In this document: piece after piece, positions 16,359-31,941 of the stretch | Position numbering within the stretch: position 1 is the first letter of the stretch | Layout of the letters: each line of letters begins with the position of its first letter | Assembly: GCA_946538525.1 (NCBI GenBank) | Contig: CAMNGU010000004.1 | Span: 1 to 52,921 of the forward strand | DNA from: an uncultured Lachnospiraceae bacterium | GTDB lineage: Bacteria; Bacillota; Clostridia; Lachnospirales; Lachnospiraceae | Length of the DNA stretch: 52,921 bases | Direction: 5' to 3' | Program-made: the position numbers and the translations under genes | Notes under the pieces: generated by a model | Seen by the model: only the letters and a program-made list of their open reading frames with translations | The model's database searches: none | What the model was told of the DNA's origin: nothing

Positions 16359-17528
16359 TTATTCTTTGGAGATGACAATCTTTCCATCCACAACATCGAT
16401 CTTAACTCTGTTAGAATCAATACCAACCGCTTCTCTCATTTCTGCTGAAAGTCTTACTCGGCCAGCCTTATCAAGAATTGAGAACTCTTCATGTGAATCA
16501 TCTTCTGAAGATGATACTCCAGTTCCCGCTCCCAGTCCGGATGAAGCTGCCACGGCTGCGGCTGCGCTATTCATTTCCTCTTTAAGAACGGTCTCACCAG
16601 CTTCAATCTTCTTCTTATATTCTTCCTTGATAATTCTCTCAGAACTTATCTTTCCATCTGATATCATTACAACTCGGTCTACTCTATCAGCTAGGCTGAT
16701 ATCGTGAGTAACGATGATGATGGTGATTCCCAGCTTTCTATTGATATCGCGGAAAAGGTCCTGAAGCATGATGGAGGTCTTTCTATCTACCGCACCAGTT
16801 GGCTCATCCATAAGTAGCAGCTCTGGCTCATTTACCAGTGCTGTTGCTATGGCTACTCTCTGCTGCTCACCACCCGACAGCTGCATCGGGAAGCTCTTCT
16901 CCTTATGAGCAAGCCCTACTGCATCCAGCATCTTTTTTGCCCGTTCTCTCTTTTCTTTCTTACTTAGATTGGAGAACAGAAGAGGCATCTCGACATTCTC
17001 AACAGCTGTCAAGTAATTAAGGAGGTTATCGGTGTTTTTCTGCCATACAAATCCTATATGGTCATTACGGAATTTAGCTAGTTGTTTTTCACTAAGCTCC
17101 GCAATATTAACACCGTCATATGCAACATAACCAGCGCTTGGTTTATCAAGTGCACCCAGCATGTTAAGAAGAGTGGATTTTCCGCTACCAGATTTTCCAA
17201 TAATTGCAGTCAGTTCACCCTTCTCAATCTCAAGGTCAAGTCCCTGTAGAGCCATAACCTCGATACCCTCTGATTTGAATATTCGAACCAGACTGTCGCA
17301 TTTGATGTAAGGAACATGTTCGTCTTCACCCTCTTTATTTTCAAATGGAGATGGAGCAATCTGATCAACAGGTTGACTCGATTCTTCCATAATAGGATTT
17401 GGAGTTGCCTGCTCATCTGGTTGACTAGGTTCACTCACCATAAGATTAGGATCCGGCTCATTCACTGGTGCTGTCCCCTCAGAAATATTCTTATCTATTA
17501 TATTTTTATTCTTTTCAAATATTTTCAT
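16359..17528 (-). CDS. ABC transporter ATP-binding protein with AbrB-like C-terminal domain
   Basis: GKSGSGKSTLLNMLGALDKPSAG, LSGGEQQRVAIATALVNEPELLLMDEPTGAVD; C-terminal FSILDKAGRVRLSAEMREAVGIDSNRVKIDVVDGKIVI. Confidence 0.88.
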   Translation of the reverse strand: MKIFEKNKNIIDKNISEGTAPVNEPDPNLMVSEPSQPDEQATPNPIMEESSQPVDQIAPSPFENKEGEDEHVPYIKCDSLVRIFKSEGIEVMALQGLDLEIEKGELTAIIGKSGSGKSTLLNMLGALDKPSAGYVAYDGVNIAELSEKQLAKFRNDHIGFVWQKNTDNLLNYLTAVENVEMPLLFSNLSKKEKRERAKKMLDAVGLAHKEKSFPMQLSGGEQQRVAIATALVNEPELLLMDEPTGAVDRKTSIMLQDLFRDINRKLGITIIIVTHDISLADRVDRVVMISDGKISSERIIKEEYKKKIEAGETVLKEEMNSAAAAVAASSGLGAGTGVSSSEDDSHEEFSILDKAGRVRLSAEMREAVGIDSNRVKIDVVDGKIVISKE

Positions 17529-17659: not shown

Positions 17660-18349
17660 TTACAACTGAATCAGTACATCTGCCAGCTCGGACAGACGAA
17701 CATCGTGGGTTGTCATTACTATTGAAAGATTCTCGGTTCTTGTCATATTCTTGAACAGCTCTGCGATATAGATACCTGTGGTTGTATCCAGCGCTCCAGT
17801 AGGCTCGTCGGCAAAGAGCAGTTCCGGCTTATGTGCCATAGCTCTCGCAATGGCGATTCTCTGCCTCTCACCACCAGACAGCTCCCCAGGAAAATGCTTC
17901 GCTCTATCTGAAAGTCCCACCTTTTCCAGCACTTCCTTAATTCTCTCATTTCGGTCGCCCTTATAGTAAGCTGTTCTAAGGCCGAAATCCACATTTTCAT
18001 AGGCTGTCATAACCGGGATAAGAGCTACTGACTGGAATACAAATCCAATCTTATATCTTCTAAGTTTTTCCTTTTCACTAATGCTCATCTTTGAATATTC
18101 AAAGTCACCATCCTGTGAATCGTGAAATGTGATCTCACCGGAAGTTACATCGTCCAGTGTACTGAGAAGATTCATAAATGTGGTCTTACCGGAACCAGAT
18201 CTCCCCATAAGCATGATCAGCTGTCCTCTTGGAAAGTCGTAGTTCACATGATCAAGAACAGTAAGCGTTTCACCACTTCCCAGGGGATAGGCTTTCACCA
18301 CATCACGAGCTGTTAATATGTTGTTATTTCCTGATATTTCCATATTCAT
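17660..18349 (-). CDS. ABC transporter ATP-binding protein (MacB/LolD-type)
   Basis: MGRSGSGKTTFMNLLSTLDDVTSG, LSGGERQRIAIARAMAHKPELLFADEPTGALD. Confidence 0.9.
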   Translation of the reverse strand: MNMEISGNNNILTARDVVKAYPLGSGETLTVLDHVNYDFPRGQLIMLMGRSGSGKTTFMNLLSTLDDVTSGEITFHDSQDGDFEYSKMSISEKEKLRRYKIGFVFQSVALIPVMTAYENVDFGLRTAYYKGDRNERIKEVLEKVGLSDRAKHFPGELSGGERQRIAIARAMAHKPELLFADEPTGALDTTTGIYIAELFKNMTRTENLSIVMTTHDVRLSELADVLIQL

Positions 18350-18415: not shown

Positions 18416-21319
18416 TTAGTCATCACCAAGCTTCAGCGCTTCAGTGATATTCAGTCCTCTTACGATCTTTCTGATCCAGAATACGCATACTAATACAACA
18501 ACCAGAAGTACCAGCGCAAGTTTTATCATATCTCCACCGTAGGAGCTGATGAATACTGCAACATTATGCTTCTGTGGCAGGTAAACCGCTGCAAATAGTT
18601 TTACGAAGTACTTCGATGCCAGGGTTCCTGCAATTACTCCGGCGAAGATTGACATCAGCGACAGGAATATCTGTTCGATTCCTATCATCTTATTGATCTC
18701 GCCTCTACTGATACCCATAGCTCTGTAAATACCAAAGAGCAGTTCTCTGTCTCTAATAGATGTTATCCAGTAGATCATATAACCTATGATACAAAGTACA
18801 AGAGCTACAAGGAAGTCTGCTGTAAAGATACCATTTGTAATCTGAATAATAGCTGTAGACTTTTCTTTTCTTATTTCTTCTTTCCAGGAGGTAACCTTAT
18901 CCAAATATCTTGTACCTGAACCAAAGCTTTCGTTCACCACATCCTTAACTTCATCATAGCCTTCATCAGTCTTAACCCATACTTCGTAAGGAAGAACTGT
19001 TAATGAACTTGTAGCCAATCCATAGTTAATAACTGCCAGATAGTTTTCTTTTTCAACTACCTTTCCATTTTCATCTGTTACATATTTATACTTCACATAG
19101 CCTGGCCATGCATCAACAATAGCCACCACCTTTAGGTCTACTGTTGCATAAACATTGGTCTCGCCTGTAGCTGCTGGAGGCAGCTGCTCAATTACCATGT
19201 TGTCACCAACCTTAACCTCATACTTGTCAGCAAGACTCTTAGAGATAATAACACCCTCATTTTCTGCTGCAAGTGCATTCAGGTAGTTATACCAATGCTC
19301 TGGAGTAAGTCCATCCTTAAGGTTTGCTGTCTCACCAAATTCCTTTGTATTGATTGCCATCAGTGAAACATCGGAAAAGTCCTTTCCACCAGCTTTTATC
19401 TTGGTACGATCTGAATACATTACCTTAGTAACTGATGAAGCATGACCTTCATCCTTAAGTTTGAGATAATTCTCGTAGTCAGGTTCATTGTACTTCCAAA
19501 CTCGTTGTCCCGGAGGTCCCATAACTATCAGGTCCCAATGCTCCTTGATTCTCATGTCTGCACCACATTCATATTTCAGACGGTCTTCCTTATTGGCATT
19601 TATGGTTCTCGCCATATTTGCATTAAAGAGACTCATGGCAACAGTCATAACAAGGAATATTGATATTACTGCTGAAGCATTTCTAGTACGCATTATCTGC
19701 AGGAATCCTGCATATGTAACAGGCTGGAATCTCTTCTCACCCAGCTTATATACCAATTTTACAAAGTAGAAAATGATTCTCAGCATCAGCATTCCGCAGG
19801 CAAAGAGGAACAGCGTCGCATTTATGAAGATAACAGGATCTATTCCTTCACCATTCATTACGCTATTCGAAAGAAGTCCCAACTGCTTATTGTAGTTGAA
19901 CAGCAGATAGACAGACACTGCCAGAAGTGCCACATCCAGGAAATACTTCTCCCAAAATGGAGTAGCTGCTGTCTTTCTTCTTGTCTTTTTCTTCTTGAAG
20001 AAGATCAGTACAGGAAGCTCCATAACCATAACTGCTATAAGAGCTGCTGCAATGCCTGCAAGTACCATCCATATGTTGAATCTATAATCTCTTACACTTA
20101 TATCAGAGCTAAATGAGAATCCCATGAAGTCATCAACACTAGCAACCATCTTTCCAAAACCAAAGCCCACCAGAAGTCCTATAGGAAGACTGACTCCGGC
20201 AAGAATAAATGCCTGGATAATGTACATCACTATAAGTCTGGCTACGCTTAGACCTCTGCTTCTAAGTGTTGTCAGCTCCCCTGCTTCTGAATCGATAATT
20301 CTAAATGCGATCATTCCGATGAAGATAAGCACTAGAACGATAAGTGGAAGAACGATAACATAAAGCATCTGCTCTACAGATTTACTTCCTTCCTTAAATT
20401 CAGAAATGATTGGAGTAATATTTTCCTCCAGGTTCGCATCCTTACTTTTAAACTGTCTGATGATATTGTTAATATAAAAGACATTGCTAGGGTCAATATA
20501 TCTGTAATCGAAAGACTCATAACATTCTGTAGTTGTATCCTTCTCATATTTCATGAGGAAACTATCAAAGTCTTTCTTATCAACTATTGCAAATGTTCCG
20601 CATTCTTCAAGAGTTTTGTGCCAGAAATAATCATCAGCCTTTTCGGTAATGATTCCATTTACATAGAGTGTAATAACAGGATCATCACTTTCTTCTGCTC
20701 CGTACATTACCTTCTTAATATAGATAAGTTCTCCAGGAACCAAATTAAGCAAATCTGCTGTATACTGACCTACAAGACAAGGAATGGCATCTTCCGGAAT
20801 ATCTATTCCCTGATCTGTATACTCTGAGATATCCTCATATAGATCAGCTCCCTGAACTACATGATAGTGCTTTGACCATCCTTCCGGATCATCATCTGAT
20901 AGTAATCCATCGTCAATACATCCGAAACTTATTCGTCCGCTTCCATGGTATGAAAACTCTGCATCAACTGACCTATAATAGATAATTCTCTGGGACGAAA
21001 GAACTGGAAGTTCCAGATATTTGTTCCAAGAATCCTCATAACTCTTCATCCTGTCTGTGATGGTTTTAGTATTTCTCTGTTCATCAGGAAGATCCACCAA
21101 CTCTGTACCTTTTACTACATCCGATCTGTAAAGATAGGCTGGAAATCTTTGAGTCTGCTCCTGCTGTTTTGAAAAACCTCTCTGAATAAGCTTCATTCTT
21201 GAGCCATCTCTGAACATCATGATCATTGCGAATATCATGATAATAGAAATGTTACCAATCATGAGACACAGATAAAGTTTATACTTATTTTTAATTTTTG
21301 TAAGAATATACCTTATCAT
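18416..21319 (-). CDS. FtsX/MacB-type ABC transporter permease
   Basis: 967 aa; two permease-like TM modules (TTLRSRGLSVARLIVMYIIQAFILAGV; RELLFGIYRAMGISRGEINKMIGIEQIFLSLMSIFAGV). Confidence 0.85.
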   Translation of the reverse strand: MIRYILTKIKNKYKLYLCLMIGNISIIMIFAMIMMFRDGSRMKLIQRGFSKQQEQTQRFPAYLYRSDVVKGTELVDLPDEQRNTKTITDRMKSYEDSWNKYLELPVLSSQRIIYYRSVDAEFSYHGSGRISFGCIDDGLLSDDDPEGWSKHYHVVQGADLYEDISEYTDQGIDIPEDAIPCLVGQYTADLLNLVPGELIYIKKVMYGAEESDDPVITLYVNGIITEKADDYFWHKTLEECGTFAIVDKKDFDSFLMKYEKDTTTECYESFDYRYIDPSNVFYINNIIRQFKSKDANLEENITPIISEFKEGSKSVEQMLYVIVLPLIVLVLIFIGMIAFRIIDSEAGELTTLRSRGLSVARLIVMYIIQAFILAGVSLPIGLLVGFGFGKMVASVDDFMGFSFSSDISVRDYRFNIWMVLAGIAAALIAVMVMELPVLIFFKKKKTRRKTAATPFWEKYFLDVALLAVSVYLLFNYNKQLGLLSNSVMNGEGIDPVIFINATLFLFACGMLMLRIIFYFVKLVYKLGEKRFQPVTYAGFLQIMRTRNASAVISIFLVMTVAMSLFNANMARTINANKEDRLKYECGADMRIKEHWDLIVMGPPGQRVWKYNEPDYENYLKLKDEGHASSVTKVMYSDRTKIKAGGKDFSDVSLMAINTKEFGETANLKDGLTPEHWYNYLNALAAENEGVIISKSLADKYEVKVGDNMVIEQLPPAATGETNVYATVDLKVVAIVDAWPGYVKYKYVTDENGKVVEKENYLAVINYGLATSSLTVLPYEVWVKTDEGYDEVKDVVNESFGSGTRYLDKVTSWKEEIRKEKSTAIIQITNGIFTADFLVALVLCIIGYMIYWITSIRDRELLFGIYRAMGISRGEINKMIGIEQIFLSLMSIFAGVIAGTLASKYFVKLFAAVYLPQKHNVAVFISSYGGDMIKLALVLLVVVLVCVFWIRKIVRGLNITEALKLGDD

Positions 21320-23610
21320 TTCAGTATCTTATCTCCCACTTCTAATCCACTAAGAATATATTTTGTTCCTGTAGCTGATATTGAATCATATACGATTACA
21401 TATTCCTTCACATACTCTTCGCCTTCTAATTTCCAGACAAAGTGTTTTTCTTTCTGTGTCAGCTGATCAACCTCGGATTTTACTGCTTTCATAGGAACGG
21501 CTACAACCTGTCTCATTTCTCTTGCAGGAATTGTCAGCTCATTTCGAAGAAGATCCGTTTCTGTTATCTCTCCATCCATTTCCAGAATGCACTGATACTC
21601 GACATTCTTGTTAAATGGAGCTGAAAAAGTCACATGTGGTCTATCATCATCTGTAAAAAGCATAAATCTGTTTTTATTTCCATTTATTCCGATACAGGTT
21701 CCAGTCCAGGTTTTTAGATTCTTAACATCCTCTGCACTACCATCACCTTCCTGCTTATTAACCAATGTGACCTTCTGTCCCAGATAGGCCGTGTTAATAG
21801 GAGAAACAAGCCCCGGTTCTTCACTGATTATTGCCAAAAGCTTTGTATGATTTGGTTTATCATTTCTATAGGATTCTGTAAGTACATAAGAGCCCTTTTC
21901 AATCTTGGCATCATTATCGTGAACGATGGCTGCAATCTTTCCATCTCTTACTGCACTCTCCACATAATCTGAATGACCATCTACATAGGTTGTTCCTATA
22001 CGGATTTTTTCATATTCTTCCATCTTGATACTTCGGGTTGCATTATATTCAGCCTTTTCGTAACTCTCCTGAATATCCAGAGTATCTATATCACATTTTG
22101 TTCGTTCCGCAAGATACATATTTTCGTAAATGGCATCTGTACTTGTGCCCATATCTTCTGCAGTGAACATTTCTGCACCCTTTAGAATTTCCTCTAATTC
22201 TGCTCTGTTCTTATTATATGTATCTGAAGCTTCCTGCCGGGTTTTATCCAGATTCTCAATTGTGAGACGAGCCTCTTCAACATCTCCCTTACCTGCGTTT
22301 GAATCTACTGAGAAAAGTGCATCTCCCGCAGAAGCCATTCCAGTATTAGCGATTCTTGAAAAATCTCCGCTAATTTCTGAGGTATATATTTCATATTTCG
22401 GATATGCCAGATCTACTATCTTAGATGTACATTCCTCCACATAGTCAGATAGTTCAACCTCATAAATATCTTGTGAGCTCGGAATCATGGCACGGTTGTT
22501 ATAGAAGACCAATTCCCCTTCCTCAAGTCCGGAGATTACTTCTGTATAAAGACCATCTGTAACTCCCAACTCTATTATTCTTTTCTCATTTTTACCATCC
22601 GGGCCTTTTACATATACGAAGTTCTCACCACTATCCCGGTAGATTGAGTCATTTCCAACTGCCAACTGAGGAGCATCATCGCCTTCCAGGAAATACATAG
22701 GCATATCTGTGCCCATGATCAGTTGTCCCTCTTTGACATCAAAGGCCATTGGAGGATTCATCTGTACTGATAAAGCATAGGAAACTTCTTCGTTAGAGTA
22801 ATTCCTCTCGTCAATTTCAACCTTCTTACCATTTAGGTAAGTCCATTTACTCTTGTAGTTTTCAAATTCATACTTATTGATATTCTTGTCTTCAGCTTCT
22901 ATGTAAAGATCATCATAATCAGCTATTGTTACAATATTCTGATTTCCCGGAATCTCATTGGATTCTGTAAGATCTCTTACATAAACTACTGGACCTGAGA
23001 TTGGTGCAACAAATTCATTATTGCTCTGCTGCTCCGTAATCTCTGCAAGCTCTGATTTTAATGAACTGATATCTGCATCATAGACTGCCAGATTATATCT
23101 TTGATTCTCTCTCTCAACAGCAATCTCTTTGGTCTTCGTCTTTATTCCTTCTTCATTCTGCAGATATTCTTCAATCTTCAGCTCATAACCCATCTTCTCA
23201 ATACTTTTATCAGAAATATTTTTTTTATTACTACGCATTCTATTCAGTGAAGCTATCTGGGCATTTATGCTGGCTGCTCTTTCATCTAGAACAGCTGTAT
23301 TGACTCTGGCTATAACCTGACCAGCCTCAACATAGTCACCAACGCTTACCAATATTTCAGAAAGACTTACGGTCTTATCTGAATATACCGGATATTCCTT
23401 AGGTACCACATGGCCGTAGATCATCTCGATTTTTCCTACGGTCCTCTTGGATACAGGTCGATAAGCAGTAGCAATAGTGCTAGGCTCTATCAGCTCAGGA
23501 ATATCAGCTGACGCTTTTCCGCATCCGGAAAGCCCTGCCAGAAGCACTGTGATCTGGACCGCTACCAGAATGGTGCTCACTATTTTATTTTTCTTAAATA
23601 ACTTAATCAT
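21316..23610 (-). CDS. lipoprotein HlyD/RND-type adaptor, probable tandem double adaptor
   Basis: Lipobox LSGC; lipoyl-like block VSVGDYVEAGQVIARVN; EVISGLEEGELVFY mid-protein and ILSGLEVGDKILK at C-terminus; ATGA overlap with permease start. Confidence 0.75.
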   Translation of the reverse strand: MIKLFKKNKIVSTILVAVQITVLLAGLSGCGKASADIPELIEPSTIATAYRPVSKRTVGKIEMIYGHVVPKEYPVYSDKTVSLSEILVSVGDYVEAGQVIARVNTAVLDERAASINAQIASLNRMRSNKKNISDKSIEKMGYELKIEEYLQNEEGIKTKTKEIAVERENQRYNLAVYDADISSLKSELAEITEQQSNNEFVAPISGPVVYVRDLTESNEIPGNQNIVTIADYDDLYIEAEDKNINKYEFENYKSKWTYLNGKKVEIDERNYSNEEVSYALSVQMNPPMAFDVKEGQLIMGTDMPMYFLEGDDAPQLAVGNDSIYRDSGENFVYVKGPDGKNEKRIIELGVTDGLYTEVISGLEEGELVFYNNRAMIPSSQDIYEVELSDYVEECTSKIVDLAYPKYEIYTSEISGDFSRIANTGMASAGDALFSVDSNAGKGDVEEARLTIENLDKTRQEASDTYNKNRAELEEILKGAEMFTAEDMGTSTDAIYENMYLAERTKCDIDTLDIQESYEKAEYNATRSIKMEEYEKIRIGTTYVDGHSDYVESAVRDGKIAAIVHDNDAKIEKGSYVLTESYRNDKPNHTKLLAIISEEPGLVSPINTAYLGQKVTLVNKQEGDGSAEDVKNLKTWTGTCIGINGNKNRFMLFTDDDRPHVTFSAPFNKNVEYQCILEMDGEITETDLLRNELTIPAREMRQVVAVPMKAVKSEVDQLTQKEKHFVWKLEGEEYVKEYVIVYDSISATGTKYILSGLEVGDKILK

Positions 23611-23658: not shown

Positions 23659-24870
23659 TTATTCTTCGGAGATTGACACCACATCGCCTTCCTCAAGGCC
23701 CTTGGTGATTACCGTATACTGTCCGACGGTATCTCCCACCTCAACCTCTATAGCTTTAAATAGGCCATCTTCCTGCTGAAGATGAACAAAGTATTGATCC
23801 TCATGCTGTATTACTGCTCTTTTATCTACATATATAGCATCCTTTATTTCCGGAAGCTCTTTATAAAGAACTAAGGATTTTTCTTTAAGCACTTCATTGT
23901 TTACCAGCTTGAAATATACCTTATCCGAGGTTATCAGTTTGCCCTGTCCAGTTGAGCCTGCGCTTTCTTCAGATGTATCCTCTGCATCTGTATCATCCTG
24001 AGCACTGGCATCTCCTGCACTGGCTGTGTCGCTGCCCACACCTCCTGGTCCTTCAATAACCTCAACCTGATACTCACTAACCATAGTCTTTGCTGTAAAT
24101 ACATCTCCCACATGGAATTCAAAATCCTCAGTAGCTGAACCGGTTGAATTCTTAGTTCTATCCATAATGTAGTAACCATCGTCATTTACTATCTTGACTA
24201 TAGGGCTACCTACTACTATAAATCCGTCCTTTACTGAAGGGTCCACATAGCTTACAACACCTTCAACTTCTGAGATTACATTTATCTTGTCATAGGTATC
24301 ATTTATATCCTGAATATATGTGTCTGCCAGGGAAATGTCATTTCCAAGAGAAACCATCTCATCAAAATAATCCAGTGACGGATCAATATCCATCAGCTTC
24401 TGATAGTGTTCCTTTTCCAACACCGACTTAGTTCTTCCTACAGTGCTCTGTCGGATCTGTTTTGTAAGACTTTCAGAGTCAAAGCTTAATATGGTATCAC
24501 CTACTGATACCTTGTCACCAACATCCACATTTAGTGACTTGAACTTGACCTTGTATTCCATCTCGATTGCTTCCATCTTGCTCTTCTCGATTCGCAGGAT
24601 GACCTCATTATATCCAGACAGGTTTATCTCCTGAGTATATGTTGGAGTCAAATCTCCCTTCTGAACAAAGACGGTATTCTGCTGCAATCTGGTATAGGTA
24701 ATGTCCCTTGCCGGTACCAGTGGATCCATATCAGAATTTCCACAACCGGAAAGCGCTAAAAGAGAGACCAGCAGGGTTCCTGCCAGCACTCTCTTCATCA
24801 TGTGCTTTGGAATATGCTTTGGAATTTGATTTGAAATAAAACCTTGCTTTTGCTCTTGTTTCCTAAACAT
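23659..24870 (-). CDS. lipoprotein HlyD/RND-type periplasmic-adaptor-like protein
   Basis: Lipobox LSGC; LNVDVGDKVSVGDTILSFD and VITKGLEEGDVVSISEE adaptor motifs. Confidence 0.78.
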   Translation of the reverse strand: MFRKQEQKQGFISNQIPKHIPKHMMKRVLAGTLLVSLLALSGCGNSDMDPLVPARDITYTRLQQNTVFVQKGDLTPTYTQEINLSGYNEVILRIEKSKMEAIEMEYKVKFKSLNVDVGDKVSVGDTILSFDSESLTKQIRQSTVGRTKSVLEKEHYQKLMDIDPSLDYFDEMVSLGNDISLADTYIQDINDTYDKINVISEVEGVVSYVDPSVKDGFIVVGSPIVKIVNDDGYYIMDRTKNSTGSATEDFEFHVGDVFTAKTMVSEYQVEVIEGPGGVGSDTASAGDASAQDDTDAEDTSEESAGSTGQGKLITSDKVYFKLVNNEVLKEKSLVLYKELPEIKDAIYVDKRAVIQHEDQYFVHLQQEDGLFKAIEVEVGDTVGQYTVITKGLEEGDVVSISEE

Positions 24871-24942: not shown

Positions 24943-26598
24943 TTAATAATCCACCGTATTTATCATACTTCCGTCCATGGCATTTATAAATACTGCTATT
25001 ACATTATAGTCATTCCCCTGGACAAGGAATTGCCAAACAGGAATATAGGAAAAGTTTGTACTATCCGGTTCTTCAGAATATGGAATAAGTGTAAGATCCA
25101 TTTGTTGTATGGTGAGTTTTGAGGCTCCCTGCTTCACATCATCAGGAATAGTTTTCTCACCAATCTGTTCTTTAAACGCTTCCATAATCTTATCAAACTC
25201 TAAAAGTCTGACATTTTCTGTTATATCAGTTATCTCATCCACCAGAGTAAGGTCAACTCCCATGATTCCCTTATCTGTCACTTTAATTCTTCCAGTATTA
25301 ACAATCATAGATACAGCACCACCAGCAGAAACTTGTTCACCAGTTTCTCCTTCAAAGATGGCATCGTTTAGATAAACTGCATAACCATTTATATCATAAT
25401 CTAAGACATTTTCTGATTCATTTACATCATTTTGATTATCTATAATGTACTGATAGATGCTATCATATTTTCCTTCTTCAGCCTCAGAATATCTATCTTC
25501 CTGATCCGCAAGAACCTGATAACCAGCACCTTCACCACCATGACCTCTAGTTATTATGGCGCTTAGAAAATCTGAATGAGTAAATGATAAAACACTCACA
25601 CCCGGATCCTTGTACAAGTATTCGGTATAATCAAAATCAGTAATATTATCTGTACCGCTACTCTTAAAAATGGAAGGATTGGTTGTAATATGATTCATGT
25701 TGCTTGGTATACCCAGTTTTTCTTCAAGGAACTGTGATGCTTCCTCTTTAACCTCATCAATACTCTTAGTGCACTGATTTTCTATCTCAAGAGGCTGACT
25801 CTGGGAGTCATTTGAACCTTCAATATAGAGAGTTCTATAATCCTTATCTGGAAAATACTCATTAATACTAACTGGGTCAAAGAAGATTGTTCTCTTTTCT
25901 GCATATCTATCATATGCCAGAAGCAGACAGAAACGAGTGCCTTCATAATCACCTTCATACATATGAATAAAGTATTTATCTTCATCAACCCATTCAAAGG
26001 TTTCTTCATCCGCCACATTTATAAGTTTGAACTGCTCGCTGTAGCTACTGGAAGAAAAATCAAAATTTTCTGAATACATACTCAGCTGAAACATTATATT
26101 CTTATACTTATACGCCATGGTCATGTAGTCAGTTTCATTTGATATTGTTATCTTATCCAGTTTTTTTGCTGAATCTCCAAAAAGAGTTTTTACAAGAGTT
26201 TCTTCCTGATCGATTCCATCTCCTACCAGTTTTGCAGAATAAACATTCATTCCTGCTATATCTGGAACAAAGTATGTGGCGTCTATATCCAGGGTCATAT
26301 CTCCTACCGCTGTAGACTCTTTCCAGTCGATCCTGTCACCAAATATCTGACGAAGTGTTTTTCCGTCTCCAGCCTGTACATTAAGTCCATCTGAATCACT
26401 ATCAGTTGCGGTACCAACCTCCTCGGATTCTACCGTGCTTCCAGATTCATTTCCGTAATCATCAACTACTACATCGTTTTTTCCACAGGCAACAAGTGAA
26501 AATGTAAGTGCTGCGCTTAACATGAAACAACTAATTTTTTTTACTGTTTTTCTCATAGGTCTTTTCCTCAAAGTTTTTCTCATTTTGTCCTTCTTCAT
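24943..26598 (-). CDS. lipoprotein of unknown function (paralogue of next gene)
   Basis: Signal peptide plus lipobox LVACGKND; LRQIFGDRIDWKES shared with 26704-28350 product. Confidence 0.75.
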   Translation of the reverse strand: MKKDKMRKTLRKRPMRKTVKKISCFMLSAALTFSLVACGKNDVVVDDYGNESGSTVESEEVGTATDSDSDGLNVQAGDGKTLRQIFGDRIDWKESTAVGDMTLDIDATYFVPDIAGMNVYSAKLVGDGIDQEETLVKTLFGDSAKKLDKITISNETDYMTMAYKYKNIMFQLSMYSENFDFSSSSYSEQFKLINVADEETFEWVDEDKYFIHMYEGDYEGTRFCLLLAYDRYAEKRTIFFDPVSINEYFPDKDYRTLYIEGSNDSQSQPLEIENQCTKSIDEVKEEASQFLEEKLGIPSNMNHITTNPSIFKSSGTDNITDFDYTEYLYKDPGVSVLSFTHSDFLSAIITRGHGGEGAGYQVLADQEDRYSEAEEGKYDSIYQYIIDNQNDVNESENVLDYDINGYAVYLNDAIFEGETGEQVSAGGAVSMIVNTGRIKVTDKGIMGVDLTLVDEITDITENVRLLEFDKIMEAFKEQIGEKTIPDDVKQGASKLTIQQMDLTLIPYSEEPDSTNFSYIPVWQFLVQGNDYNVIAVFINAMDGSMINTVDY

Positions 26599-26703: not shown

Positions 26704-28350
26704 CTACTCGTCATAGTTCACATAGTATAAGTCTTCTAAGGATCCATCCATTGCATTTATATTCACCATTGCCATATGGTTTCCATTAAACTCTCCCATG
26801 ATCATAAATCTCCAGCATGGAATATATGTAAGTTCTGCTCCATCTTCTTTCGCATAGTAAACTAGATCCATATTGATCATTGATAATTTTTGAGGACTAC
26901 CCATCTTTGAAGGATCAAACTTTGTATCTAGTTCTGACTTAAAGGCTTCCTGTATCTGGTCAAAATCCAGAAGATTCACACCCTCAACCATGTCATACAT
27001 TTCACTGTTCAGTGATATATCCACACCATATATTCCCTGACTAGTAAATGTTATCATTCCAGTATTTACTTCTATGCCTTCAAAGCTATTAAGCAGCGTG
27101 CTATAGTTAAATATCTGATTATCCAAGAATACTGCATAACCATCATAGGTTTTTGTTCCCTCTACTACTCCCGCACTAGAACCAGTGTAGATGAAGTCAT
27201 ATATATCCTGGCCCTTTTCTTCATACGCATCTCTAGCAAGATCCTGCTGTTCTGAAAGTATCTGATAGGATTCAATAACACCCTGCCGGCCATCCTTAAG
27301 ACAGCTCATATAGTCCGTATCAGTAAATGAAATAACTGATGGACCCATATCAAATAATTCAGACATATAGTTTGATGCACTAAAAGCAACAGTTTGCTGA
27401 TCCAGCAATGTATATATTCTTGAATCTGGAGTAATCTTATTATTTGTACTGCTGATCTTCAGCTTTTCTTCAAGGAAATCCGAAGCCTCTTTCTCAACTT
27501 CTTCCATACTCATATTACAGGCATTATCAAATTCTCTAGCCGAACCTATCTTATCGTTTGTGCTTTCTATAAGCATAGTCTCATAATTCGTTCCAGGGAA
27601 ATAATCCGATATATTTAGAGGATTAAAGAATATATATCTTGTAGCTGTAATCGCATCATATCCCATAAGAAGACCAAACCTTTTTTCTTCATAGGTACCT
27701 TCATACATATGAATATGATAAGTTTCTGTATCCCTCCAGGTGAACTTTTCCTCTGTTTCATCAAAATATGAAGAAGTGATTATACTGTAGCATTTCTGGA
27801 GATATTCAGGCCCTGTTTCAATCTCCTCATCTATTCCGGTATTCGTGGTCATACTATTTAGAAGATATCTATATTTATAGAGAAATGGCATATACTCTGT
27901 TTCACCTTTATATGTCAGCTCTTCTATCTTCTCTGCTGTGTCACCAAAAATAGCCTTTACTACACTTTCCTCCCATGCAGAATCATAGGTCATGGCTTTA
28001 CATTTCATAACATTCATGTATGAATCAGCAGGAACAGAATAGTAAGTATCAACATCTATAGTTTTATTTGCAATGGAAAATGATTCTTCCCAATCGATTC
28101 TTTCGCCGAACATCTGCCTGAGATCCCTGCCTTCACCCTGCTCCGCAACATCTGTTGCAGTCGCAGCATCACCAGTGGTTGCAGATGCTGTACTACTTGC
28201 TGAATTATCACCATATTCCTCAACCACTACATTTCCCTTTCCACATGAAGTAAGAGAAATACAAAGTGATACACCAAGCATAATCGATATGAAGTTTTTT
28301 CTGATTTTTTTGAATTTAGATTTGAAATTTTTAGAATCTGTAATATTCAT
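26704..28350 (-). CDS. lipoprotein of unknown function
   Basis: Lipobox LTSCGKGN; LRQMFGERIDWEES and C-terminal YIPCWRFMIMGEFNGNHMAMVNINAMDGS parallel the neighbouring paralogue. Confidence 0.75.
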   Translation of the reverse strand: MNITDSKNFKSKFKKIRKNFISIMLGVSLCISLTSCGKGNVVVEEYGDNSASSTASATTGDAATATDVAEQGEGRDLRQMFGERIDWEESFSIANKTIDVDTYYSVPADSYMNVMKCKAMTYDSAWEESVVKAIFGDTAEKIEELTYKGETEYMPFLYKYRYLLNSMTTNTGIDEEIETGPEYLQKCYSIITSSYFDETEEKFTWRDTETYHIHMYEGTYEEKRFGLLMGYDAITATRYIFFNPLNISDYFPGTNYETMLIESTNDKIGSAREFDNACNMSMEEVEKEASDFLEEKLKISSTNNKITPDSRIYTLLDQQTVAFSASNYMSELFDMGPSVISFTDTDYMSCLKDGRQGVIESYQILSEQQDLARDAYEEKGQDIYDFIYTGSSAGVVEGTKTYDGYAVFLDNQIFNYSTLLNSFEGIEVNTGMITFTSQGIYGVDISLNSEMYDMVEGVNLLDFDQIQEAFKSELDTKFDPSKMGSPQKLSMINMDLVYYAKEDGAELTYIPCWRFMIMGEFNGNHMAMVNINAMDGSLEDLYYVNYDE

Positions 28351-28426
28351 TTTCTTTCCCTTTTGCTAAATTCACAGCAAACCAACACTTTTATAACCTC
28401 ACTCTTTACATAAGATAAACCAAGTT

Positions 28427-28465
28427 TGTATCGAGAATGTATCATTGGTGTATCGAAAATGTATC
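28427..28465 (+). promoter_or_regulatory. four-box direct-repeat array TGTATC, 11-bp periodicity
   Basis: TGTATC at 28427, 28438, 28449, 28460 exactly. Confidence 0.85.
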
Positions 28466-28649
28466 AATTGAGATTTATTTCTAATTTCTTTCTATTTCTT
28501 CTTATTTTCAAAAATCAAAATCAGGTTATTCATTTTTCTGCAGGACAGCAAAATTCATGCTATAATATCCCTTGGCTAACTTCGAAAGCTTTTGAAGATA
28601 TGCCTTTCATATTAATATGAAGACTTAGTATGAAACAGTGGAGGTTATA

Positions 28650-29309
28650 ATGATACGCATTCTTATAGTCGAAGATGAGAAACCTATCTCCGACCTTATG
28701 GTTATGAATCTTACGCGGGCAGGTTACAAATGTACCGCTATCTATAATGGGCGAGAAGCCGCGGATCTTCTTGAAGAGAATCAGAGCTTCGACCTTATCC
28801 TTCTTGATATAATGCTTCCTGAGATAAATGGTCACGAGCTTATGGAATATATCAAACCTATGGGAATTCCTGTAATCTTCATTACTGCCATGGCAGAACT
28901 GGATGACAGGGTCAAGGGACTCACTTCTGGTGCAGAGGATTATATAGTTAAGCCATTTGAAATCGTGGAGCTTCTGGCAAGAATAAATATTGTTCTTAGA
29001 AGATACAATAAAACGGATACAATCCTGAGCTTTAAAGATCTTAAAATAGATGTGGAGAATAGAATTGTGACTAGAGAAGGAGAAGAGATCAAGCTCACTC
29101 CTAAGGAATTTGATCTCCTGGTTCTTTTCGTGCGAAATGTAAATATGACTCTCTTCAAGGACAAGATCTTCGAAACCATTTGGGAAACCGAATGGCAGCC
29201 AGAATCAAGGACCGTAGATCTTCATGTTCAGAGACTTCGCAAGAAACTGAACCTGAAGGACAACCTGAAAACAGCATACAGCACAGGTTATAGACTAAGT
29301 GACAAATAA
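28650..29309 (+). CDS. OmpR/PhoB-family response regulator
   Basis: MIRILIVEDEKPISDLM; DLILLDIMLP; VKPFEIVELLARI; C-terminal winged helix LTPKEFDLLVLFVRN...TVDLHVQRLRKKL; SD GGAGG. Confidence 0.95.
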   Translation: MIRILIVEDEKPISDLMVMNLTRAGYKCTAIYNGREAADLLEENQSFDLILLDIMLPEINGHELMEYIKPMGIPVIFITAMAELDDRVKGLTSGAEDYIVKPFEIVELLARINIVLRRYNKTDTILSFKDLKIDVENRIVTREGEEIKLTPKEFDLLVLFVRNVNMTLFKDKIFETIWETEWQPESRTVDLHVQRLRKKLNLKDNLKTAYSTGYRLSDK

Positions 29310-29389: not shown

Positions 29390-30991
29390 ATGAAATTTAG
29401 ATACAAGGTGGTTCTCGTTAATATCATAATTATAGCCCTGACTCTTTCAATATCAGGGTTCTTTATTATGTCCAGACAGAACCAACTTATGATAGATTCC
29501 CAGATTAAAAATGCGGTTACAGAGAATAACCTTATAGAGTCTGCCGTTGAGTACTCCCTTCTGGATATCATCAATGATCCTTCCACCAGCAGTGTTCAGG
29601 GTACGCTTCCAATTGTATCTCAGAGAATTTCCTCCGGAATGCTCAGCTCCACTGCTAATATGTTTGTAACATATAATCATGATATAGTTTTTTCATCCTC
29701 CAAAGATACATCCAATGAAACTATTACACATATAAAGGACCTTGTGGACGATTCATCAAGCAGAAAGAAATACCTTATAACTGACGAAACCATTACCCAG
29801 ACTATTCTTAAGGAATCCAAGAATATCGATAATAATGATAATGCTACTTCAACTAAGTACGAAACTAAAAAAATAAAGAAAAATTACATATATGTAGCCT
29901 CATCTATTGTTATAAATGATACCAAGATAAATATTATCACTAAACGAGATAATACTGAAACAATAGATACTATCAATAATAACATTTACATTTTCAGGAT
30001 CTTCATCATATCTATGCTGCTTTTATCCGGAATCATTGTCTATGGTTTCAGCAAGCTGCTGACCAAACCTCTTGAGAAACTGAATTCTGTAACAGATGAA
30101 TTTGCCGAGGGTAATTTCGAAAGTCGAAGCACAATCCATTCACAGGATGAGGTTGGTCTTCTGTCGAAAAAATTCAACCACATGGCAGATTCCGTTAATA
30201 ACCATATTGATGAGCTGAACGATATGATCCACCGGCGAGATCAGTTCGTTGCCGACTTCACCCATGAGATAAAAACACCTATGACTACCATCATAGGTTA
30301 TGCAGATACAATCCGTTCAGTGGAGCTTCCAAGAGAGGATGAGGTTAAGGCTGCAAATTACATTTTCAGTGAAGGTAAGCGCCTGGAGCAAATGTCATCT
30401 CACCTCTTCGATCTTATCTATCTTAAGGATGGCGTAGTTCCAAAGCAGCCTATTAATACACAGGGCTTGGGAGAAGCAGTTGTAACCACCGTGGGGCCTG
30501 CAATTGAGAGAGCTCAACTGACACTAAAAGCAGATTTTGAAAATGCCACCATAACCGGTGACGGTGCACTGCTTAAGTCAGTATTCATCAACCTGCTGGA
30601 TAACGCCAGAAAGGCTTCTACTGTTCCAGATAACGAGAGAGAAATCATTTTCTCTGGTAGGATCATCAGTGGGGAGGAACTTTCCAGCAGACAGAAGGAT
30701 GAGGATCAGAATAGTAAGGACAAGAAAAAAACTTCAAAAGATGAGTTCTACTACGAATATGTGGTGGAAGATCACGGAATCGGTATTGCCGAGGAAGATA
30801 TCAATAAGATATGTGACGAATTTTACATGGTAGATAAATCCCGTTCAAGAAGCGAAGGTGGAGCGGGACTTGGAATGTCTCTGGTTGCTGCAATCCTGAA
30901 GGAGCACGACGCAGAGCTTAACATTGAAAGTGAGTTAGGTGTGGGAACTAAGATGATCGTTACTATGCCTTGTGAAAAATCAGAAGAATAA
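29390..30991 (+). CDS. sensor histidine kinase
   Basis: TM-extracellular-TM-HAMP-like, FVADFTHEIKTPMTTIIGYAD H-box, LLDNARKAS N-box, DHGIGI, GGAGLGMSLV. Confidence 0.95.
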   Translation: MKFRYKVVLVNIIIIALTLSISGFFIMSRQNQLMIDSQIKNAVTENNLIESAVEYSLLDIINDPSTSSVQGTLPIVSQRISSGMLSSTANMFVTYNHDIVFSSSKDTSNETITHIKDLVDDSSSRKKYLITDETITQTILKESKNIDNNDNATSTKYETKKIKKNYIYVASSIVINDTKINIITKRDNTETIDTINNNIYIFRIFIISMLLLSGIIVYGFSKLLTKPLEKLNSVTDEFAEGNFESRSTIHSQDEVGLLSKKFNHMADSVNNHIDELNDMIHRRDQFVADFTHEIKTPMTTIIGYADTIRSVELPREDEVKAANYIFSEGKRLEQMSSHLFDLIYLKDGVVPKQPINTQGLGEAVVTTVGPAIERAQLTLKADFENATITGDGALLKSVFINLLDNARKASTVPDNEREIIFSGRIISGEELSSRQKDEDQNSKDKKKTSKDEFYYEYVVEDHGIGIAEEDINKICDEFYMVDKSRSRSEGGAGLGMSLVAAILKEHDAELNIESELGVGTKMIVTMPCEKSEE

Positions 30992-31047: not shown

Positions 31048-31941
31048 ATGAATAAAATATCATTTAAAAACTTCATACTTGTGGTGACAACTCTGGTCAT
31101 TGCTGGTTTATCTATATGGCTTCCAGGTTTTCTTGTAAGTCGTAGCAGCTCCTCTGAAATGTCAGTGGTTACAAGTGTGCCTCCAGAATACTACTCCGGC
31201 CCTTCAGAGTCCATCATCAAAAATGCCTCCAGACAGCTCACAAATGAGCAGTGTATTCAGCTAATCACTGGAATGTGGGAAAGCACCATAGCTCCTGCAG
31301 ATGAAGACTCATGTGCCATAAATGAATTTGGTATCCGTACTCTTGTTATCAATAGAGTAGACGATCTTTACGCCAGAGGTCTTTATCCTTGTAATCTCAG
31401 TTCCGCATATGATCAGTGGTATTCCTGGACCGCAACTCCTTATAGAGCCCTGGATACAACCTTCCAGACTTATGCTGCTATTTACTGGGATATTACATTT
31501 ACTAAGTATGACAATACGGATTATCACAGATTTATTGTCACAGAGTCCGGAGACATTTTGTATGCTGAAGTCAAAATCCTTGAACCTGACGAAAATAATC
31601 AGAAGGATTTTTCAAACTTCACTCCTGACATGAGTGACAGTACTTACATGCTTTTTTACTACGGAGAATATCTAAATACAACCTATAACAAAGGAAATGT
31701 CCGCGTTATGGAACATAATGGAGTTACAACTTCATATACAACTAAAGAAGCATCCGAAAAAGAAAAACAAAATCTAGATCCCAATGCGGCTTCTTTCTAT
31801 ATAAATGATTTTGTTCCTTTGGATCCAAGTAAAATATATACCATCAACCAGACTTCATCTGACAGCAGAACACCTATGAAGTACTTTGTGACCTGCGAGA
31901 TTAATTCTGACAGCTATCGCATCCTGATGCAGCCAAGATAA
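31048..31941 (+). CDS. membrane-anchored extracytoplasmic protein of unknown function
   Basis: 297 aa, N-terminal TM FILVVTTLVIAGLSIWLPGFLV; 56 bp after histidine kinase. Confidence 0.6.
   Translation: MNKISFKNFILVVTTLVIAGLSIWLPGFLVSRSSSSEMSVVTSVPPEYYSGPSESIIKNASRQLTNEQCIQLITGMWESTIAPADEDSCAINEFGIRTLVINRVDDLYARGLYPCNLSSAYDQWYSWTATPYRALDTTFQTYAAIYWDITFTKYDNTDYHRFIVTESGDILYAEVKILEPDENNQKDFSNFTPDMSDSTYMLFYYGEYLNTTYNKGNVRVMEHNGVTTSYTTKEASEKEKQNLDPNAASFYINDFVPLDPSKIYTINQTSSDSRTPMKYFVTCEINSDSYRILMQPR

Follow-up and report, generated by a model that had tools for sequence, protein, structure and literature searches.

An array of four identical hexamers in the 52,921-bp stretch of Lachnospiraceae DNA analysed here (the window) very likely serves as the operator of a seven-gene lipoprotein/ABC-efflux operon with an activator-dependent promoter, the predicted activator being the OmpR/PhoB-family response regulator encoded beside it (28650-29309, + strand). 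Support for this reading comes from comparison: dozens of relatives have the word, with its promoter spacing unchanged, ahead of related lipoprotein and regulator genes. In rumen-type Lachnospiraceae it predicts where an uncharacterised two-component/efflux system has its operator and promoter, and it supplies a short DNA motif by which target genes can be recognised without expression data, many of them encoding DUF6034-type lipoproteins; the general understanding of OmpR/PhoB-type regulators is left unchanged.

The TGTATC hexamers TGTATCGAGAA, TGTATCATTGG, TGTATCGAAAA and TGTATCAATTG are all perfect and start at 28427, 28438, 28449 and 28460 on the + strand, exactly as the first-pass annotation had described them, in 11-bp steps. 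On the - strand, which is that of the operon, the array reads (GATACA-N5)x4 with an 11-bp period. Box 1 (28460-28465) and box 2 (28449-28454) form an additional upstream pair, and box 3 (28438-28443), at the -35 position, together with the promoter-proximal box 4 (28427-28432), makes up the pair that is conserved genus-wide. The three spacers are all unlike (GAGAA, ATTGG and GAAAA), the hexamers being unchanged. A window-wide scan at periods of 7-25 returned this array as the sole perfect, equally spaced four-copy hexamer, and no perfect four-copy hexamer array arose when the window was simulated 40 times with a first-order Markov model. The 2.6-Mb assembly contains four exact TGTATC-N5-TGTATC pairs, three of them from the array and the fourth within a long ORF on contig C7. 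With up to two mismatches allowed, single pairs are about as frequent in the window as expected (7 matches against 6.0), so the signal lies in the perfect tandem array and in its conservation.

The array sits in a 299-bp gap separating two divergent transcription units, which bears out its reported location between a transporter operon and a two-component system. The operon, on the - strand, begins with lipoprotein A (26704-28350), a homologue of DUF6034 lipoproteins that by itself does not match PF19499; several of its homologues do. Then come its paralogue lipoprotein B (24943-26598; PF19499 DUF6034, E 1.4e-9), a membrane-fusion-type lipoprotein (23659-24870; a weak RND_mfp match, under the cut-off), a membrane-fusion (HlyD/MacA-like) lipoprotein (21316-23610), an FtsX/MacB-type permease (18416-21319) and two ABC ATPases of the LolD/MacB type (17660-18349 and 16359-17528). 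On the + strand, the response regulator, which combines a PF00072 receiver with a PF00486 Trans_reg_C domain and is the proposed binder of the boxes, precedes a sensor histidine kinase (29390-30991; HAMP, HisKA and HATPase) and, 3' of the kinase, a probable membrane-anchored protein (31048-31941) that matches no known family. An unassigned ORF directly follows the kinase in the orthologous loci L236, L237 and L238 of other genera too. A lipoprotein profile search against solved structures gave nothing credible, a YycI match in one lipoprotein homologue had an E-value of only 0.059, the predicted structure of lipoprotein A (built from three sequences) had a pLDDT of 35 and was not relied on, and PADLOC matches were generic ATPase and receiver matches only. 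A MacB-like lipoprotein/efflux operon with a two-component system of its own might serve an envelope or antimicrobial-peptide response.

The probable -10 element of the operon is TATCTT (28412-28417, - strand), 9 bp downstream of box 4, an offset at which TANNNT is conserved. When only loci found by protein search were counted and near-duplicates were dropped, TANNNT stood at offset 9 from the last box in 28 of 33 non-redundant sites, every other offset accounting for at most 4 and chance for about 1. An earlier count of this spacing was set aside as partly biased, many of its loci having been fetched using the full pattern. The mean -10 across sites is close to TATAAT, and a promoter matrix made from 80 non-redundant sites, the window locus excluded, gives 28412-28443 (- strand) a score of 28.6 bits, against 11.1 for the runner-up among non-overlapping sites in the window. 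A sigma-70 -35/-10 combination was looked for in the 299-bp intergenic gap, and none was found. Because the conserved -10 follows exactly 9 bp past the last box, boxes 3 and 4 probably stand in for the -35, the arrangement of PhoB-type (class II) activation. Transcription would start near 28405, which would place box 4 at about -22 to -27, box 3 at about -33 to -38, box 2 at about -44 to -49 and box 1 at about -55 to -60. The regulator gene has a candidate extended -10 (TG-C-TATAAT) of its own, TGCTATAAT (28558-28566, + strand), with no box before it, and no regulator-facing box pair was found at the window locus; in several relatives a pair does face the regulator gene, suggesting self-activation there.

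Conservation within the genus was approached from both protein and DNA. Many same-genus lipoprotein homologues retrieved by protein search, 25-40% identical, have GATACA-N5-GATACA upstream, followed by 9 bp and TANNNT. A search with DNA only, for GATACA-N5-GATACA-N9-TANNNT in 61 same-genus genomes, yielded 46 matches versus 2 for a reversed-pattern control. Nearly all inspected genus sites face a gene of one of three kinds: most of the fetched ones precede a DUF6034-type lipoprotein gene, and most of the others precede lipoprotein/efflux operons or an OmpR-family regulator gene. GATACA-N6-GATACA was unusable as a spacing control, with more matches than N5 and long runs, for example in G017, because its 12-bp period is in frame and collects coding repeats. 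The search of orthologous regions that had been put forward as a check on the array was positive in most close orthologues, and the proposed OmpR/PhoB-type operator with 11-bp phasing for the lipoprotein/ABC operon is strongly supported by this comparative evidence. The sister locus (L013/L015, 97% identical, from the uncultured Lachnospiraceae MAG RUG12891) retains boxes 1 and 2; four boxes are also present in L022, and arrays of three or four occur in L022, L044, L237 and L240. The conserved unit is the promoter-proximal pair, and the fourfold array is a local elaboration, common to the sister and similar in a few relatives. At L172 (G026:C64), the boxes of a four-box variant are unevenly spaced (10, 10 and 11 bp). 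DUF6034-type lipoprotein genes are themselves highly duplicated throughout the genus, with as many as 18 matches in one genome and frequent tandem copies (e.g., G008, G004, G023 and G035), and this duplication is a lineage-specific expansion.

The box also follows the orthology of the regulator. The 600 bp preceding the regulator gene were scanned for pairs with at most one mismatch, for which shuffled controls were near 0; such a pair is present in 9 of 13 orthologues at 84% identity or above, in 12 of 21 at 66-80%, in 3 of 28 at 54-64% and in 1 of 21 below 50%. The exceptions in the closest group comprise G029 and G007, with boxes at more distant lipoprotein genes, G004, with full sites elsewhere in the genome, and G017, with a GATGCA-GATGCA variant. 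Many orthologues at 67-74% identity have no box within 600 bp upstream. The full site is present in 25 of the 34 genomes that contain the regulator (at least 66% identity) versus 4 of the 27 that do not (Fisher p 6.6e-6, with no correction for kinship). A box usually adjoins the gene in orthologues of the adjacent regulator but not in most paralogues, and the divergent adjacency of the regulator is conserved in many genomes.

Beyond the genus, the pattern is rarer: 396 wider-family genomes gave 36 matches, the window's own included, the control giving 2. About 13 of 30 inspected sites there precede an OmpR-family regulator gene, and others precede lipoprotein genes. Boxes flank the same two-component locus in two genomes of other genera in which a relative of the kinase is present (G091 and G149); in a third (G105, L236) the box is absent before the regulator orthologue and the locus is not box-flanked. 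A different recognition helix is present in a few box-carrying regulators from outside the clade. A second OmpR-family group, 30-35% identical (L165, L195, L196, L205, L206 and L207), carries GATACA-N5-GATACA-N9-TANNNT before its own gene and has a recognition helix near RVVDNHIKKLRK.

Elsewhere in the genome of the window, two further DUF6034 lipoprotein genes have degenerate candidate sites, GATGTA-N5-GATACA-N9-TACACT 79 bp upstream of the gene on contig C13 and TATACA-N5-TATACA-N9-TATAAT 102 bp upstream of that on contig C46. The own-genome search with two mismatches was only about twofold above its control, so these two sites rest on their gene context. Another response-regulator gene of this genome is preceded, 64 bp upstream, by GATATA-N5-GATATA-N9-TAATAT (G000:C50:7830-7861), possibly a related box with a different hexamer.

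Several other explanations of the array have to be weighed. In the first-pass annotation, the boxes were followed by a promoter with a weak -35 (TTATCT) and the -10 TATAAA (28390-28395, - strand). Both hexamers exist, with a 17-bp spacer between them, but this promoter is probably wrong, since the sister, for all its 97% identity, has TTTAAA in place of TATAAA, and other relatives keep a -10 with the 9-bp offset from the last box. We consider this layout very improbable: the conserved -10 is TATCTT, and the -35 region is taken up by the boxes themselves. Overlap with the -35 region of the inferred promoter is also what a repressor site would show, with the regulator or another protein blocking RNA polymerase there. 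Such a role has a slim chance, slightly better than that of the first-pass promoter layout. With no sigma-70 promoter found and no hexamer resembling a -35 beside the conserved -10, little promoter activity would be left to repress, and the fixed 9-bp gap (28 of 33 sites) is what contact between an activator and the polymerase requires.

A somewhat stronger, though still unlikely, alternative keeps the operator and changes its reader, the main binder being another OmpR-family regulator of the genome. Close paralogues about 60% identical, with similar recognition helices, are indeed encoded (G000:C14 and C30), and in G021, where a search at E<=1e-50 gives no match to the regulator, a lipoprotein gene is nonetheless preceded by the site, which may there be read by a different regulator. 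Against this, the box follows the clade of adjacent orthologues rather than the paralogue group, and the divergent arrangement has been kept across many genomes. A chance or replication-slippage repeat without any regulatory role has almost no probability left. Duplication could create 11-bp units, and spacers 1 and 3 (GAGAA and GAAAA) are alike, but the hexamers are perfect though the spacers differ, and the same pair with the same spacing stands before diverged homologous genes and in other genera, a conservation that refutes this explanation.

Under the preferred reading, an activator site for the adjacent regulator, stimulation of the kinase would lead to phosphorylation of the regulator, which would then occupy the GATACA half-sites in head-to-tail order, all on one face of the helix at 11-bp intervals. 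One dimer on boxes 3 and 4 would cover the -35 region, 9 bp from TATCTT, replacing the -35 element and contacting RNA polymerase; a second dimer on boxes 1 and 2, in phase upstream, would probably add cooperativity or sharpen the response. RNA polymerase would thereby be recruited by one dimer in the relatives and by two tandem dimers at the window locus. Within this scheme, we infer the identity of the binder, its phosphorylation, activation in preference to repression, and what the extra pair does. A bolder and rather doubtful extension would make the GATACA box the mark of a Lachnospiraceae regulon not described before, with a heavily duplicated family of DUF6034 surface lipoproteins and a MacB-like exporter under the control of a single two-component system; the lipoproteins would in turn act on the kinase, either as receptors of the signal or as inhibitors. 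YycH and YycI, which act on WalK, offer a loose parallel for such feedback.

The type of operator is already known, and the GATACA box with its DUF6034 regulon is a new instance of it, not found in the literature searched, which yielded no description of the GATACA box or of DUF6034 and no report joining GATACA, OmpR, Clostridium and binding site. As in class II OmpR/PhoB-type operators, the array is a hexamer direct repeat with an 11-bp period, the associated regulator consists of a receiver and a Trans_reg_C winged helix, and the boxes hold a fixed position relative to the -10 (28 of 33 sites) that replaces the -35. The core binding region of B. subtilis PhoP consists of TTAACA-like repeats with 11-bp phasing, and its up to four phased hexamers, from about -20 to -60 and followed by a -10, resemble the present array, although hexamer and targets are different. 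The KdpE operator, TTTA(T/C)A-N5-TTTA(T/C)A, likewise has two 6-bp half-sites 5 bp apart (PMC3264566), and the final TACA of GATACA agrees with it, but the invariant TT of KdpE sites is GA here and there are no kdp genes. The WalR (YycF) box of Bacillus and Staphylococcus, TGTWAH-N5-TGTWAH (PMC4168254, PMC9210968), is also a hexamer direct repeat with N5, and TGTATC, on the other strand, fits it at 5 of 6 positions; it departs from TGTWAH in having T, not A, at position 5, the regulator scores 154 bits, below the YycF cut-off of 340, and the targets here are not the cell-wall genes of WalR. In E. coli, a head-to-tail dimer of PhoB binds tandem direct repeats over the -35 at a strictly kept distance from the core promoter (PMC3348028, PMC10294691), and the half-site of the pho box is TGTCA(T/C) (PMC3264566). 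All four boxes here are GATACA and not of the TGTCA type, the regulator scores 187.6 bits, below the PhoB equivalog cut-off of 296.2, and the operon is without phosphate genes; what the array shares with the PhoB system is the direct-repeat arrangement over the -35 and a regulator of the same structural family.
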